A stretch of DNA of 64,000 nt, taken from the NCBI GenBank assembly GCA_023666425.1, contig JAMPCA010000006.1:1-64000 (forward strand), in the 5' to 3' direction. Source of the stretch: Muribaculaceae bacterium (lineage in GTDB: Bacteria > Bacillota > Clostridia > Lachnospirales > Lachnospiraceae). Shown one piece after another: positions 55,626 through 62,030 of the stretch (position 1 is its first letter; each line of letters starts with the position of its first letter). The notes beneath the pieces were generated by a model. The model saw only the letters and a program-made list of their open reading frames with translations. It was not told the origin of the DNA and did not search any database. The translations under genes and the position numbers were made by a program.

Positions 55626-56060
55626 CTAATCCAGTTCCACACGGCTGCTAAAAATTGTCTCCTCAATCACCTGCACACACTCGTCTACATTTTTCTTTAT
55701 TTCATCGCCCCAGAAGCGGATAACTGTCCAGCCCTGAAACAGCAGCTGTTTATTGACCTCATCGTCCCTTTCCCTGTTTCGGGAAATCTTTTGAATCCAG
55801 AACTCGCCATTATTGCTTTTTTCCAGCCTTGGCCTCAACACCTCCCAATCCTTCCCGTGAAAGAATTCTCCGTCACAAAAGATCACGATTTTGTATTTGG
55901 TCAAAACGATATCCGGTTTTCCCGGTAAGTATGCAACATTTTTTCTGTAACGGATGCCCTTTTTCCACAAGGCTTTTCTGAGCAGAATTTCAATCTTCGT
56001 GTCTTTCGATTTGATATGCTGCATATTTTTTCTACGCTGTTCTTTCGTCAGTACGTCCAT
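55626..56060 (-). CDS. vsr: Very short patch repair endonuclease
   Basis: This protein of about 144 residues has the Vsr opening DVLTKEQRRKNMQHIKSKDT, catalytic region GKPDIVLTKYKIVIFCDGEF (Asp in PDIVL), then FFHGKDW and GWTVIRFWGDEI. Vsr nicks at T:G mismatches made when 5-methylcytosine deaminates and usually accompanies C5 methyltransferases, as it does here. The start at 56060 lies 29 bases inside the end of the LlaJI-like gene, so it is the last gene of the operon. Confidence 0.9.
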   Translation of the reverse strand: MDVLTKEQRRKNMQHIKSKDTKIEILLRKALWKKGIRYRKNVAYLPGKPDIVLTKYKIVIFCDGEFFHGKDWEVLRPRLEKSNNGEFWIQKISRNRERDDEVNKQLLFQGWTVIRFWGDEIKKNVDECVQVIEETIFSSRVELD

Positions 56061-57309
56061 CTCTTTCACCCATAAAGGCAGACGGCACACTCTCTGTATG
56101 CCTGCTAATTTCTTCTGCCAGCTGCATGATCGCATTTCCATCCCGTCTCACATGTATTTGCATGAGATATTTTACATCAATCAATATTCCATGGATTTTC
56201 TCATAGCTCTTTTCATTATGCTTCCAGTCGCTTGTCGCTTCCCCGATCCATAAGGGATGATGATCCGTGTTCCAATCGTGATCCTTCACATTATAAGGCA
56301 TTAAAAAGGCATTATAGACCCTATAATTCTCTCCGTGAATTTCTCTGAATTTCTCCTGCTCCGCAATGTACTCCCCATATGTGATCTGCTTATGGACGGA
56401 AGTGGATCCGGGCAGATCGTCCATATTGTGTGTGACCCCGTATTTGTAATATTTTGCATCCAGTACATAGACGTTTCCCTGATACAGCATAATCGTATCC
56501 GGCCGCAAGGTGGAATTCCCATATACGCCGTCCCCTGTACTCCATTCCGTTTTAGGGAAATAGGCTCCTTTGGCGCTGATTCCGTAAACCCTGTCGATCA
56601 TCGCCTCCCATACATATTCAAAGCTATATGTGCCATACTGATAATTTTTATCCGCCCCATTGTCTCCCTGATACTTTACAACTGCCAGCATACTTTGAAA
56701 CAGCTTTCTGTTTTTATCATTAAATGTCTGTGACAATTTCTCTACTATTACGCTGGTAAATCGTTTTTCATTGTACTCTGTTCCCGGCCGTTCCGGTATG
56801 CGGCCGGAAAACAGCCAGCCTAATTTTGAGAAACTTTCATACACACAATACGCATGCACCCGGGTGATCATTTCGTCATTTTTGATGGAGTTCTTTTTGG
56901 TCACATAATCGAGATAAAAAACATCCGTCCCCTGAATATACGCCTTTTGCGTTTTAATGGTTCTGTTCCAGTCTGTCTTTCCACGCTTCGAAACGCTGTA
57001 TCTTACTTCTCTTTCTTTATAATATCCCCGCGCATAAAAATCATATAAGATAAACATATATGCCTGAAAAGGAAAACAGGTATCCTCATACTGTTTACGA
57101 TTCTTCAGCAGAGTGGATTCCTTTTTTGAAGTCGTCAGGCGAATCGTTTCCAACAGCAGCAGAATATCCCTTCTCAGTTCCTTATCATCTTCCGAAACAT
57201 CAAAACCCAGGGGAAAATTCACCGAAAAATCCCCATTTTCGCATTTCAACCCAACAAATGTGTCCGCTGTATTAACTTTGCATTTTTCTCTTATGCTAAA
57301 TCCGGACAT
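56032..57309 (-). CDS. LlaJI/McrC-like restriction nuclease subunit
   Basis: This 425-residue protein has a PD-(D/E)xK nuclease signature in the C-terminal half, LRPDTIMLYQGNVYVLDAKY (Asp in RPD, then DAK), as in LlaJI-family and McrC nucleases. The N-terminal 200 residues match the LlaJI type more than McrC. It presumably cuts DNA when activated by the McrB-like ATPase upstream, whose stop is 14 bases away. It is the counterpart of BsuMI YdjA. Confidence 0.85.
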   Translation of the reverse strand: MSGFSIREKCKVNTADTFVGLKCENGDFSVNFPLGFDVSEDDKELRRDILLLLETIRLTTSKKESTLLKNRKQYEDTCFPFQAYMFILYDFYARGYYKEREVRYSVSKRGKTDWNRTIKTQKAYIQGTDVFYLDYVTKKNSIKNDEMITRVHAYCVYESFSKLGWLFSGRIPERPGTEYNEKRFTSVIVEKLSQTFNDKNRKLFQSMLAVVKYQGDNGADKNYQYGTYSFEYVWEAMIDRVYGISAKGAYFPKTEWSTGDGVYGNSTLRPDTIMLYQGNVYVLDAKYYKYGVTHNMDDLPGSTSVHKQITYGEYIAEQEKFREIHGENYRVYNAFLMPYNVKDHDWNTDHHPLWIGEATSDWKHNEKSYEKIHGILIDVKYLMQIHVRRDGNAIMQLAEEISRHTESVPSAFMGERDGRTDERTA

Positions 57310-57323
57310 GCCAATCCCCCGCT

Positions 57324-58661
57324 CTATGATTCTCCGTCTGTATGGTTTTCCTGCGCCGCCCTCTCCGCCATTTTTCTGTATACCTCCGGATTGAGTACCG
57401 CCTCCAGCTTATCACCGGCGGCGGCTTCGTATGTATCTATGACGGCCTCCAGCGACTGACAGGTATCGCTAAAGATTTTTTCTCTGTCCATCTGAAAAGC
57501 GTCATCCCACAGATATTTCAGCACCTTTTCCGGAAATTTATCCACCGTCAGCTCGCTGGATTTTACAAAATATGCCCCCAGCCTCTTATCCTCAGAGCTC
57601 GCCATATCTGAATTGAGTTCTATGACCATCTCGTTTATGACGCTTGCAAAAATGCCCCATTCCACACGGGTTCCCTCCATCCTTTGCCCGGCATGTACCG
57701 CTTTCATAACGTCATTTTTGATATGGTGCATATTCCATCTTCGCTGAAACGCGGTATCCAGCGTAAATACATTCTGGTCTGCCGTATTCATCGTTGCCAG
57801 CACCCACATATTCGATGGTATCTTCACTTCGTGGTTTTCATTGCCATATACATGTACCGCCACTTCATAATTTGAAATTCCATATTCACTCTCGCCATAT
57901 TCCTCTGGCAGATATTTCGGATTGTCTTCTGTCTTCCGGTCTAACAGCTGAAAGATTTCCCCAAAAACCGCCGGCGCGTTTCCGCGGTTGATTTCCTCTA
58001 TCACCAGATAATACCTATTCTCCGGATGGTTGTATGCCTCTCCCAGAAGCCTCGTGAACGGCCCCGGTGTAAACACATATCTCAGTTTTTCGTTTTCCAC
58101 CCGCGGAAGGATCTGACCCACAAAGTCCGAATAGGTATAGTCCGGATGAAATACCACTCTCTCCATCTTACTGGCGTCGTCACAGTATTTTTCCTGTATT
58201 TCGTGGCTTTTTCCTGCTCCCGGCACGCCGTAGAGTAATACATTTTCCGCTCCCGTCAGCCTCGGGACAGCCACATGCTCTTTTGTCTCCCTGACGCCGG
58301 CAGACACAGCCGCTATCAGGCGCCTGTAGATCTCCGTGTATTTTTCTTCATCAATCTTAATCCATTCAGTTTCTTCTATGTCCCGGCTGATATCATCCTG
58401 CAAAATCTCCACCCCGTCTGCTACTTCAAACAGCTTCCGGAATTTTCGCTGACCGCCCGCCGTTCCCTTATGCTCCAAAACGATACTGACCTTCGCAACC
58501 GGCCTTCTCCTGTATACGAGCACCCGGTCGCCCGCCTCCAGTTTCTCCATGATATCTGAATGATTTTTCTTCTCCAATGAAAACAAAAAATCTTCCGCAG
58601 AATCCATAAGTGAAAATGTGTTAATAAAGGAATCTACGGATAAAATGTAATAATTTCCCAC
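57324..58661 (-). CDS. McrB-like AAA+ restriction ATPase with PUA/EVE-like N-domain
   Basis: This 445-residue protein has two parts. The N-terminal 115 residues (NYYILSVDSFINTFSLMDSA, then LEAGDRVLVYRRRPVAKVS) look like a PUA/EVE-type reader of modified or specific bases. The AAA+ part has Walker A YGVPGAGKSHEIQ, the McrB segment FHPDYTYSDFVGQI, Walker B YLVIEEINRGNAPAVFGEI and sensor ATMNTADQNVFTLD. McrB relatives hydrolyse GTP and drive DNA translocation; in this type of system they work with the LlaJI-like nuclease. It starts 3 bases after the 206-residue gene. Confidence 0.88.
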   Translation of the reverse strand: MGNYYILSVDSFINTFSLMDSAEDFLFSLEKKNHSDIMEKLEAGDRVLVYRRRPVAKVSIVLEHKGTAGGQRKFRKLFEVADGVEILQDDISRDIEETEWIKIDEEKYTEIYRRLIAAVSAGVRETKEHVAVPRLTGAENVLLYGVPGAGKSHEIQEKYCDDASKMERVVFHPDYTYSDFVGQILPRVENEKLRYVFTPGPFTRLLGEAYNHPENRYYLVIEEINRGNAPAVFGEIFQLLDRKTEDNPKYLPEEYGESEYGISNYEVAVHVYGNENHEVKIPSNMWVLATMNTADQNVFTLDTAFQRRWNMHHIKNDVMKAVHAGQRMEGTRVEWGIFASVINEMVIELNSDMASSEDKRLGAYFVKSSELTVDKFPEKVLKYLWDDAFQMDREKIFSDTCQSLEAVIDTYEAAAGDKLEAVLNPEVYRKMAERAAQENHTDGES

Positions 58662-58664
58662 TGT

Positions 58665-59285
58665 CTAACCCTCCATCTCAAAACAGTATTTTTTCCACCC
58701 ATAGAAATTTTTTAATTTTATGCCGCCGCCTCCGACGTCCAGCTCTCCAATTTCTTTTGCATGAAACTTTCCAAGAATACTCTCCCCGTCTATGCTTATA
58801 TCGTAAAAATCCGTGTTTTCAGGAGAATCATTTCTTTTCTTCCCGGAACATAAAAAGCGGACAGCCACATTCTCTCCCATTCCATCCGCCATGCTTTCAA
58901 AATGCGCCAGTCTGCCCGGCGTTAATATCTCAAATCCCTGCCTTTCTTTCTGGAATACAAGTGCATGATTATGTTTGCGGACGTACACCAGATATTTTAC
59001 ATGATCTGGCATACACCTCTTTTCAAATACAATTTCATCTCCCGCCGACAGATCCTTTGAACGGTAATACTGTCCCAGTCCTACGATTCGCTTTTCCCTT
59101 CCCACAGTATTCCGGACACTGATCGCTTCTCCTGTTTCCATATCTGTAAACACGACCGGCGCATCCACAGTTTCAAACAGATCTGTGATATCCAGATCAT
59201 TGGGAATCAGCACATAGGAATCGTTCGTCCCGGCCTTTCCAAGCTCTGTATTGTTCAGCTTCTTTAGTAACTGTATAACCTTCAC
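58665..59285 (-). CDS. Restriction-operon protein, possible B3-like DNA reader
   Basis: The 206-residue protein is KVIQLLKKLNNTELGKAGTN at the start, then a strand-rich core (VVFTDMETGEAISVRN, then RIVGLGQYYRSKDLSAGDEI). The pattern of strands and the L-x-x-GDEI turn resembles B3/EcoRII-N-type pseudobarrels that recognise DNA, and some LlaJI-type McrB proteins carry such a domain at their own N-terminus. No catalytic motif is visible. It lies between the second methyltransferase (23 bases away) and the McrB gene (3 bases away), so it is part of the operon. The fold is inferred by eye. Confidence 0.6.
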   Translation of the reverse strand: MKVIQLLKKLNNTELGKAGTNDSYVLIPNDLDITDLFETVDAPVVFTDMETGEAISVRNTVGREKRIVGLGQYYRSKDLSAGDEIVFEKRCMPDHVKYLVYVRKHNHALVFQKERQGFEILTPGRLAHFESMADGMGENVAVRFLCSGKKRNDSPENTDFYDISIDGESILGKFHAKEIGELDVGGGGIKLKNFYGWKKYCFEMEG

Positions 59286-59308
59286 GCCACCGCTCTCCTC
59301 TCTGTCCG

Positions 59309-60820
59309 CTACTCGAGATATTTTTTAATCACATGGGCAATGCCCCTCGCCATCATGGCAGGGACGGCATTTCCCACCTGCATATACGTCTTCAGATATG
59401 CCCCCAAAAATAAATAATCATCGGGAAACGACTGTACCCTGGCCGCCTCTCTTGGCGTGATTGCCCGGATCTGGTACGGGTGTATATGCGAATGGCAATC
59501 CATCCGTAAATGAGCCGTTATGGTACGGCATGGCCTGTCTGCAATGAGCTTATAATACTTGTCCTTGAAACAGTGATTCCTGTGCGCGTAAGGCATAATA
59601 TCTTTTATTTTATCATCGGTCGCATCGTCCCCCTGCTCAAGCCTTTTATATATCTCATAATTTACGTCACTGCAATACCTCGCCTTATGGTTATACACAT
59701 AGGGGATATCCCGCCCCATATTGATCAGCTTCAAATATGCATTATCATTCTTTTCATATGCATTTACATCTATTTTTTTACCGGTAATATTGCTGTCCGT
59801 CTCATTCATATTTTTTATCCGCGGAGCCTCCAGGGGCTTTATGTCGCGCAGGGCGTCCATGAGGATATATTTGTGGTTTGCTGTGCAGTTTTTCCTTATC
59901 TCTTCAAAAATTTTAGCCGGCGTTATGTTTTTTTCTTCCATCACATCGCTTCTGACGGCAATGTAGATCAGCCTTTCCCTCGCCTGCGCCACACAAAAAT
60001 CCTGCGAGTTCAGTATCTCATATTTCACCTTATACGAATACTCTCTGTCACCCTTTTTTACAACTAATTTTTCATAGTCCTCGACCACCTGCCCGGCGAC
60101 CTTTGACATCCCTTTCACATTTTCCATGACCACAATTTTGGGCGCTATCTGTTCCACTGCACGGACAAAATATTTGTAAAGCTTATTTCTTGGATCATCA
60201 ATCACGCGCTGTCTGTTTGCTTCGCTAAAGCCCTGACACGGCGGCCCGCCCACGACAACGTCCACCGGCTCGTCTATATACGCCTCCATATGGTCAACAA
60301 TTTCCTTGATATCGCCCTGGATCAGCCTGCCGGACGGTAATTCCGGGTGGTTATACCGGTATGTCTGAATGCACACATCTTCAATGTCATTTGCAAGCTT
60401 AACATGAAATCCCTCCTGCAGAAATCCGAGGCTGAGCCCTCCTGCGCCGCAAAAGAAGTCCACCAGTGAAAGGCTGTGCTTTTGCAAAACGCTCTCCTGA
60501 CACTCCTTTCTCTTTGAATTATACAATTTATCCAGTAAATCCCCTATATCGTTCCGGTTGGCTATGACAAAATTAACCGCTTCTGAAAACTTCCGGTAAT
60601 CCTTCCCCAGCACCCGTTCCAGCTCCGTACATTCCTCCCTGCGCGCAATGACGCCTATCTTTATAAGCTCCTGGATGTAATCCTCTGATTCGTCTGCCTT
60701 AAGCTCTAAATGGTTTCTCTCACAAAATACTTCCACCAGCCTTCTGTATATCTGCGTCAGCTCTATAAAAAATGCTTTTTCTTTTTTATCTTCTATTTTA
60801 CGAACAGACTTAAATATCAT
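59309..60820 (-). CDS. C5-cytosine DNA methyltransferase (M2) with N-terminal extension
   Basis: This 503-residue enzyme has motif I VDFFCGAGGLSLGFL (about residue 117), motif IV GGPPCQGFSEANR with catalytic Cys, motif VI IVVMENVKGM, motif VIII-like YIAVRSDVM and the late motifs RAITPREAARVQSFPDDY and QVGNAVPAMMA. The first 110 residues are an added helical domain not found in the partner. Together the two enzymes probably methylate one cytosine on each strand of an asymmetric site, as in LlaJI. Overlaps M1 by 11 bases. Confidence 0.92.
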   Translation of the reverse strand: MIFKSVRKIEDKKEKAFFIELTQIYRRLVEVFCERNHLELKADESEDYIQELIKIGVIARREECTELERVLGKDYRKFSEAVNFVIANRNDIGDLLDKLYNSKRKECQESVLQKHSLSLVDFFCGAGGLSLGFLQEGFHVKLANDIEDVCIQTYRYNHPELPSGRLIQGDIKEIVDHMEAYIDEPVDVVVGGPPCQGFSEANRQRVIDDPRNKLYKYFVRAVEQIAPKIVVMENVKGMSKVAGQVVEDYEKLVVKKGDREYSYKVKYEILNSQDFCVAQARERLIYIAVRSDVMEEKNITPAKIFEEIRKNCTANHKYILMDALRDIKPLEAPRIKNMNETDSNITGKKIDVNAYEKNDNAYLKLINMGRDIPYVYNHKARYCSDVNYEIYKRLEQGDDATDDKIKDIMPYAHRNHCFKDKYYKLIADRPCRTITAHLRMDCHSHIHPYQIRAITPREAARVQSFPDDYLFLGAYLKTYMQVGNAVPAMMARGIAHVIKKYLE

Positions 60821-62030
60821 GTGCTTCCTCTAATTTTTCCAATTTCTCTTTAATACATTTCGCAACAGCCTCCGCGAGCAGCGGCGGAACTGCATTTCCT
60901 ATCTGCTTAAACTGTTCTGTTCTTGGCCCCTCAAAAACAAAATCATCGGGAAATGACTGGATTCTGGCCACTTCCCTTACCGTAAAGGTTCTGCTCTGGG
61001 AACTGTCCGGATGTATGAACTGATTCCCATCTTTGTACAGATGCGCAATGATGGTTTTAGACGGCAAATCCCACCACTGCACGGCGTAGCTGTTTCCAAA
61101 AACTCTCTGTTTCTCATGGTTAAGATCCGGCCGGTTCACAAGAAGCTCCTGAAACGTCCAGTGGTTCGCACTCATTACCTCATACCGTTCCATATCTTTT
61201 TGGTTATGCTTTCTCGCCACATGATCGCGCAAAACCGTATCATCCTTTTTCCTGATAGTCTTTAAAAATTCATTGTCCCTTTTGGACACAAAGGCTGTTT
61301 CTGTCTCTCCCTGTCCCGGCCTTAGCGGCGGAAGCTCCCCTATCGCATCCCATACCGTTACATATTTTTTCAGTCCCTTTCGTTCCTCCCCGCTCATTTC
61401 CGGATCATAATGCGTTTTTATGATTCCTTTATACATCTCCTCCGGTTCCACCGCAAGATCCTTCCGCACGCCCATAATGATCACTCTTTTTCTAACCTGG
61501 GGAACGCCATAATTCGCTGAGTTCAGCACGCTGAGTTTTGCATCAAACTTCACCTTATAATTCTCACCCAATGCCGCAAGCACTTTATCCACAATGTGTT
61601 CTCCATTTATTTTGGCGGTAAGCATACCCGTTACATTTTCGAATACGAAAAATCCGGGTCTATAATGATTTAATACTTTTACATAGCTTTCAAACAGATA
61701 ATTTCTTGGATCATCCTTCATCGCATGATCATCTTTTGCCCTTCCAAGCGTGGAATACGCCTGGCACGGAGGCCCCCCGATAATGACGTCAACGCTCTGC
61801 CCCTTCACCGCACTGTCAATTCTTTCGATTATGTCTTCCCGGGTGATATCAAGCTCCAGTACCGCTTCCTCTGCATTATCATAGCCATAATGGTTCATTC
61901 TTGTCCTTAAAGTTTTACATGCTGTCGGATCAATTTCCACATGTGCAAGCGCATGAAATCCCTGCCTGTAAAATCCCTCGCTCAGGCCTCCGCAGCCGGC
62001 AAATAAATCTATAAAATTATATTCTTTCAT
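60810..62030 (-). CDS. C5-cytosine DNA methyltransferase (M1)
   Basis: This 406-residue enzyme has motif I IDLFAGCGGLSEGFY at the N-terminus, motif IV GGPPCQAYSTLGRA with catalytic Cys, motif VI FVFENVTGM, and late motifs FTVREVARIQSFPDDF and QIGNAVPPLLA. The target-recognition region lies at about residues 230-330. It is first in the restriction operon; its start (GAGGTG ahead of ATG) is 43 bases from the ABC exporter stop codon, leaving little room for a promoter, so methyltransferases may be read from the exporter transcript. Confidence 0.92.
   Translation of the reverse strand: MKEYNFIDLFAGCGGLSEGFYRQGFHALAHVEIDPTACKTLRTRMNHYGYDNAEEAVLELDITREDIIERIDSAVKGQSVDVIIGGPPCQAYSTLGRAKDDHAMKDDPRNYLFESYVKVLNHYRPGFFVFENVTGMLTAKINGEHIVDKVLAALGENYKVKFDAKLSVLNSANYGVPQVRKRVIIMGVRKDLAVEPEEMYKGIIKTHYDPEMSGEERKGLKKYVTVWDAIGELPPLRPGQGETETAFVSKRDNEFLKTIRKKDDTVLRDHVARKHNQKDMERYEVMSANHWTFQELLVNRPDLNHEKQRVFGNSYAVQWWDLPSKTIIAHLYKDGNQFIHPDSSQSRTFTVREVARIQSFPDDFVFEGPRTEQFKQIGNAVPPLLAEAVAKCIKEKLEKLEEAHDI

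Follow-up and report, generated by a model that had tools for sequence, protein, structure and literature searches.

The DNA analysed here, 64,000 nucleotides of contig JAMPCA010000006.1 and referred to below as the window, carries six minus-strand open reading frames (ORFs) at 55626-62030, in the order M1-M2-S-B-R-Vsr. Each is open, with a single terminal stop. M1 and M2 overlap by 11 bases; gaps of 23, 3 and 14 bases separate M2 from S, S from B and B from R; R and Vsr overlap by 29 bases. GC content of the six genes is 42-48%, against 48.6% for the window. The original prediction, made from the sequence letters, had placed six such genes at this position and on this strand, and all six reading frames are found there, except that Vsr most likely starts at 56060 rather than at 56141. 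We consider that the genes probably make up a type II restriction-modification operon of the LlaJI (McrBC-like) kind, in which the specificity subunit, the protein S, is detached.

60810..62030, minus strand: M1, C5-cytosine methyltransferase, 406 amino acids; PF00145, 1.9e-64; motifs GGPPCQ, ENV, QVRKR and GNAVPP
59309..60820, minus strand: M2, C5-cytosine methyltransferase with an N-terminal extension of ~115 amino acids, 503 amino acids; PF00145, 2.8e-64, residues 118-500; motifs present
58665..59285, minus strand: S, stand-alone B3-fold protein and predicted DNA-site reader, 206 amino acids, GTG start; structure model
57324..58661, minus strand: B, McrB-like AAA+ motor with an EVE-like N-domain at ~residues 1-126, 445 amino acids, GTG start; AAA_5, 1.1e-12
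56032..57309, minus strand: R, LlaJI-family PD-(D/E)XK nuclease, 425 amino acids; PF09563 RE_LlaJI, 1.5e-33
55626..56060, minus strand: Vsr-type mismatch endonuclease, 144 amino acids; PF03852, 6.8e-33; TIGR00632, 138 bits
55555..55574, minus strand: terminator-like hairpin downstream of Vsr, an 8-pair stem with a T-rich tail; a consensus match only

The operon and its enzymes

The six-gene operon is real. It is no chance cluster, since the order M1-M2-S-B-R recurs at 11 of 17 loci recruited by S alone. These loci came from a scan of an 84,980-species collection with the S alignment; their number is a lower bound, since the pattern scan requires short exact peptides. Record titles include Blautia, Roseburia, Hespellia, Thomasclavelia, Clostridium sporosphaeroides and Flavobacteriaceae, among others. 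A contig end cuts the set at five loci, and at the one remaining, L032, the S frame is broken and neither B nor R was matched in the DNA examined. At L019, one of the 11 complete loci, the R gene is interrupted. As for the hairpin, terminator-like sites were no commoner in our scan than in shuffled sequence.

Searches of the six proteins with hidden Markov models, a check that the original prediction had proposed, returned the expected families for five and none for S. Catalytic loss in both methyltransferases, which it had named as grounds for abandoning the claim, was not found; M1 and M2 have their motifs instead. Its description of the locus as a LlaJI- or BsuMI-like type II system of McrBC type is borne out by the paired C5 methyltransferases, the McrB-like motor and the PF09563 nuclease. 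Its view that all motifs are intact holds for M1, M2, B and R; Vsr deviates at two positions, discussed below, and the further statement that the system is probably active is not established. M1 is 62-92% identical to the M1 proteins of 13 S-bearing loci compared, and M2 52-90% identical to their M2 proteins. The two are merged in one 932-amino-acid reading frame at L026:4805-7600.

The longest Vsr reading frame, of 171 amino acids, opens inside R. Its family match begins only at residue 27, and the relative in L008 begins at a methionine matching a start at window position 56060; we therefore take Vsr as 55626-56060. The TIGR00632 score lies above the model cut-off of 97.85, and the protein aligns with E. 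coli Vsr (1cw0) at 5.5e-18. A Vsr match occurs at five of the 17 scanned loci (L016, L018, L020, L022 and L023).

The motor B carries the motifs GVPGAGKS, VIEEIN, NTAD and RRW, and Walker A, Walker B and NxxD elements are all present. It matches the PADLOC REase_II profile over residues 129-421 (1.6e-100) and the McrB model at 60.5 bits, below the model cut-off of 637. In the predicted structure, its N-domain has an EVE/PUA fold, with matches to EVE, PUA and YTH structures. The nuclease R has the sequence PDTI...DAK at 270/284; a nuclease profile, A6, found no match among PDB sequences. PF09563 was also found in the B. subtilis control genome, a match that we take to be BsuMI. The operon fits neither of two familiar descriptions: LlaJI in the strict sense has its B3 domain fused to the motor, and here the B N-domain is EVE-like and the B3 fold occurs in the separate S; a type IV McrBC system has no cognate methyltransferase alongside, and here M1 and M2 lie in the operon.

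S, a free protein with a predicted B3 fold

S had no family match in Pfam, NCBIfam or PADLOC (E up to 0.1) or in PHROGs. Its structure model has a predicted local distance difference test score (pLDDT) of 90 and adopts the B3 pseudobarrel fold. By Foldseek, the best match of the model is the N-terminal B3 domain of H. pylori LlaJI.R1. Rows 1-23 are all LlaJI.R1 or plant B3-type proteins, including ARF and At1g16640 entries that we take to hold B3 domains, and the UbaLAI B3 domain follows at rows 28 and 30. A VIA fold search with the same model adds BfiI and EcoRII. S thus looks like the site-reading domain of the LlaJI motor made as a free protein. The original prediction had guessed that the extra protein is reader-like and that the motor N-domain is PUA/EVE-like, and the structure models agree with both guesses. 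It had regarded the reader as an addition to known systems; since its predicted fold is the one that H. pylori LlaJI.R1 carries fused to its motor, the reader appears detached rather than new. Relatedness to STING was considered for S from phmmer matches at E 0.12 and rejected, as these are absent from the profile search and from the fold matches listed.

At three loci an S-like N-terminal domain is joined to an HNH nuclease, in a gene that lies in the S operon or next to it (L022:12177-13331, L029:8300-9004 and L032:8257-8973), as expected of a DNA-recognition domain. Since the majority of the structural matches of S are plant transcription-factor domains, and restriction-modification operons often have regulators, S could instead be a B3-fold transcription factor that times operon expression in the manner of a C protein and is no restriction subunit. 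We judge this improbable. By Foldseek, S is closest to a restriction subunit. Its gene sits within the operon, separated from B by 3 bases, and at locus L076, which keeps both methyltransferases, S, B and R are all absent. The HNH fusions also speak against a regulator.

S and the EVE-like motor domain among relatives

S is uncommon in the relatives of the host. With the host counted, it was found in 3 of 299 genomes of the family and in 4 of 60 of the genus, where one copy is distant. Beyond the host, order samples of 392 and 295 genomes and a phylum sample of 299 gave chance matches only, and no relatives of S were found in viral contigs or plasmids. Two matches of S profile A1 were set aside: the one in G329 lies inside an MnmE gene, and the one in G759 was judged chance, being in a 300-amino-acid gene with no Pfam match and no restriction genes in view.

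Together with three records from the genus, the 17 scanned loci gave 20 S-related records. Eighteen have an intact S, and in all 18 the adjoining gene has the EVE-like motor domain; the other two are L032, where S is broken, and L076, where the module is absent. Records L074 and L075 repeat L016 and L020, leaving 16 distinct loci with the S-EVE pair. Since both profiles derive from the S loci, their matches at those loci are expected by design; that the loci recruited by S all have an EVE-like motor is not. We also recruited 41 LlaJI-type loci by the nuclease or M2 instead of by S; 39 of them include a motor match. A filtered search of these loci at E 1 matched neither S nor the EVE-like domain; without filters, S reached 0.043 and the EVE-like domain 0.16 at best, at places judged chance. 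Of 105 motor loci on viral contigs, the best 80, many of them from the same contigs, were also searched, and neither domain matched at E 0.001. Within the genus, the EVE-like profile matched 5 of 60 genomes, namely the four S genomes and G1052. In G1052 the match is to an EVE-McrB motor whose EVE domain scores above the Pfam cut-off; a PF10117 McrC gene lies next to it, and S has no match. The family profile thus finds a recognised EVE domain by sequence, which strengthens the PUA/EVE guess. This strict co-occurrence suggests that S and the EVE-like motor domain travel as a pair.

Two relatives offer natural experiments. In G1056, contig C54 (L076:8623-11782) has M1-M2-Vsr and lacks S-B-R, its M2 and Vsr matches lying 21 bases apart. 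As this locus keeps M1-M2-Vsr and loses S-B-R, S appears to go with restriction, and Vsr with methylation. The only S match in the G1056 genome is a distant copy on contig C7 (L154:5463-10136), beside an EVE-like McrB motor and a PF09563 nuclease (3.2e-53). This S has 280 amino acids and is 29% identical to the window S over 124 residues; the AAA part of the motor is 37.5% identical. M1, M2 and the two LlaJI methyltransferases had no match in the 15 kb examined around the set. It is preceded by one protein that combines YjbR with an O6-methylguanine-methyltransferase-like part.

These two loci also bear on a reading in which S binds DNA as a partner of M1 and M2, leaving restriction specificity to R or the EVE-like domain. 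S does come directly after M2 in the operon. We nevertheless hold this to be very improbable, as L076 has M1-M2-Vsr without S, the distant S of L154 adjoins a motor and nuclease with no methyltransferase match, and the LlaJI nuclease did not bind the site in published assays (PMC1459862).

The second relative, G1067, has a sister LlaJI-type system (L077:266-6240), identical to that of the window at 65% in the motor AAA part, 54% in the nuclease, 75% in Vsr and 49% in M2. Its motor has a different fused N-terminal part, containing HTH_73, another methyltransferase replaces M1, and neither S nor the EVE-like domain was matched at the locus. At L077, then, the specificity parts have changed together against a conserved motor core, nuclease and Vsr, and S appears to be exchanged as a unit with the EVE-like domain.

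Known systems, mechanism and target

LlaJI, known from Lactococcus pNP40 (GACGC/GCGTC) and also from H. pylori, resembles the window operon in its two C5 methyltransferases, McrB-like motor and PF09563-type nuclease. R is 39% identical to the pNP40 LlaJI nuclease, whereas the methyltransferases are only 24-28% identical. The reader of LlaJI is the motor N-terminus (R1 has 585 amino acids in pNP40), while that of the window would be the separate S, the motor having an EVE-like N-domain. In H. pylori LlaJI, site binding goes through a B3 domain (PMC7680126); R1.LlaJI binds the site alone and, when purified, was found to lack GTPase activity (PMC1459862). The fused B3 domain of LlaJI has been put forward as the structural explanation of the switch from methyl-dependent to site-specific, methyl-inhibited McrBC-like restriction.

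LlaI and BsuMI have three-ORF restriction cassettes encoding proteins homologous to the motor and nuclease of LlaJI (PMC1459862), so a detached reader has precedent in gene layout; the accounts consulted leave the role of the third restriction ORF open. BsuMI modifies mCTCGARB (PMC7261158). The LlaI and BsuMI motors, of 337 and 343 amino acids, are described as aligning over their full length with the 585-residue R1.LlaJI (PMC1459862); the window motor, at 445 amino acids, has the EVE-like domain. McrBC-like type II systems with paired methyltransferases were grouped in 2008 (PMC2614495), and a census of McrBC systems states that those associated with methyltransferases are to be published separately (PMC11090510). 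PcaI (Pectobacterium, CCNGG) is likewise McrBC-like, restricts unmethylated DNA and has a C5 methyltransferase, but this is a single Dcm-like enzyme, and its motor carries an unrelated recognition domain (PMC8989522). EVE-McrB type IV systems share the EVE-fold domain on a McrB motor; unlike the window operon they have McrC instead of a LlaJI-type nuclease, and no S, as in G1052. In enzymes with B3-type recognition domains such as EcoRII, UbaLAI and BfiI, the B3 domain lies within the nuclease polypeptide, whereas the predicted one of the window is free. A literature search, which covered few subscription journals and returned one review for LlaJI with EVE domain, found no paper describing a free B3 reader paired with an EVE-like motor. 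The apparent novelty is that the free reader has a B3 fold and that it so strictly accompanies the EVE-like motor domain.

In the LlaJI-type scheme that we favour, M1 and M2 would methylate a single recognition site, placing 5-methylcytosine (5mC) on both of its strands, and the free S would read the unmethylated site, as its fold and the gene content suggest. S would then bring in B, whose EVE-like N-domain occupies the slot of the fused B3 domain in H. pylori LlaJI.R1 and, to go by the strict co-occurrence, probably works with S, as a dock or a second DNA contact. B, a predicted McrB-type ring, would drive R to cut the DNA, by analogy with McrBC and LlaJI; GTP use is assumed by homology to McrB. 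Vsr would repair T:G mismatches arising from 5mC deamination.

McrB proteins commonly carry EVE-superfamily domains as readers of modification (PMC7641849, PMC12707154), which opens a different division of labour: S may read the unmodified site in type II fashion and the EVE-like domain modified bases in type IV fashion, the one motor and nuclease then also attacking foreign modified DNA, or the EVE-like domain may sense 5mC and veto self-cutting. The EVE-McrB motor beside the McrC gene of G1052, found by the EVE-like profile, and the L154 set without an adjoining methyltransferase match are in keeping with this idea. We regard it as unlikely, since the 126 residues of the window domain include a single tryptophan, against the stretch YWWLNANPKIW of the related G1052 protein, and the loop region of the window domain is poorly predicted (pLDDT 55-62). 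Moreover, beside LlaJI-type nucleases the EVE-like domain is seen only with S, and coupling to S therefore fits better than an independent reader.

Several observations weigh against a detached reader in a LlaJI-type operon. Sequence-profile matches of S to B3-type families are weak: TEM1 B3 gave E 0.8, and EcoRII-N gave 0.0015, below cut-off, for the homologue L025 only and nothing for the window S. The link from S to PDB entries rests on the predicted fold, and binding of S to DNA and to B is predicted only. Of the 26 conserved positions of S, 11 fall in its presumed DNA arms, which span 31 of the 206 residues (P 2.6e-4), a statistic biased by arm limits drawn after viewing the alignment. 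For the B N-domain, YTH and EVE structures tie in the VIA list, and the model is confident only in part, with block pLDDT of 55-62 over residues 11-40. The G1056 assembly, the source of L076, is 84% complete. Vsr matches are missing at 12 of the 17 scanned loci in the DNA examined, several being short contigs. Of the positions that we take to be catalytic in E. coli Vsr (D51, T63, H64 and H69), the window protein, aligned to 1cw0, keeps D51 and H69 and has C for T63 and D for H64. Lastly, a search for the target by avoidance gave no convincing site.

The S-family systems likely share a target, because the presumed recognition regions of M1 and M2 are for the most part well conserved, as are the presumed arm loops of S. 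Among 14 systems, 20-residue block means are 0.57-0.93 over M1 residues 241-340 and 0.66-0.91 over M2 residues 321-440, and the presumed DNA-arm loops of S average 0.80 and 0.73, against 0.53 and 0.52 elsewhere. For the avoidance scan, k-mers were counted in 398,555 host bases and 307,404 bases of G1071, which has the full system, and in 400,000 bases from three other members of the genus, which lack an M2 match. The palindrome GCATGC is roughly six-fold low in the host and G1071 samples (observed/expected 0.16 in both), with 0.98, 1.05 and 0.68 in the three others. Per base of whole genome, the three full-system genomes are among the seven lowest of 60. In the 16 other S-bearing loci pooled, it occurs 36 times against 62.2 expected (0.58), being low at L026 (0 against 12.2) and L016 (0 against 8.0) and not at L017 (4 against 3.1), L019 (10 against 5.9) or L022 (4 against 1.6); nor is it low in the M1-M2-Vsr genome G1056 (681 in 3.4 Mb). 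We do not claim GCATGC as the target: it was chosen from 1,920 words, other genomes without the system are equally low, and one of the three full-system genomes is a near relative of the host. A second word, ACAGG, failed outside the host and G1071 (0.89 overall). The asymmetric recognition site suggested by the original prediction is accordingly not established; two methyltransferases fit one, and the scans gave no target.

We tentatively raise the possibility that LlaJI/McrBC-type machines draw on an exchangeable specificity cassette of two parts, in which S, as a free B3 protein, gives the sequence and the EVE-like domain couples S to the motor or reads modification; it would be used with its own 5mC methyltransferases here and without any adjoining ones at L154 in G1056. 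If true, use in both settings would blur the boundary between type II and type IV restriction. A separate small reader lets recognition be added, omitted or swapped in trans, so that recognition, motor loading and cleavage become separable in assays. Should S and the EVE-like domain dock, they would be a natural specificity module already moved between motors by evolution. The operon also offers a testable variant, from a gut bacterium, of a known and poorly understood restriction class.

Several other features lie in the window. An ABC transporter gene (window:62074-63858) ends 43 bases upstream of M1. It aligns together with the operon to the Blautia metagenome-assembled locus L016 (89% over 8.4 kb), the arrangement being common to both, and a similar ABC transporter gene adjoins the L154 set. 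A small HTH_3 regulator gene (window:55159-55446) is convergent with Vsr. Further away are a TwoAYGGAY RNA on the minus strand (RF01731, 106 bits; window:34694-34861) and a gene of the Streptomycin adenylyltransferase family (PF04439, 1e-116; window:40500-41375), in a low-GC stretch with plus-strand genes.

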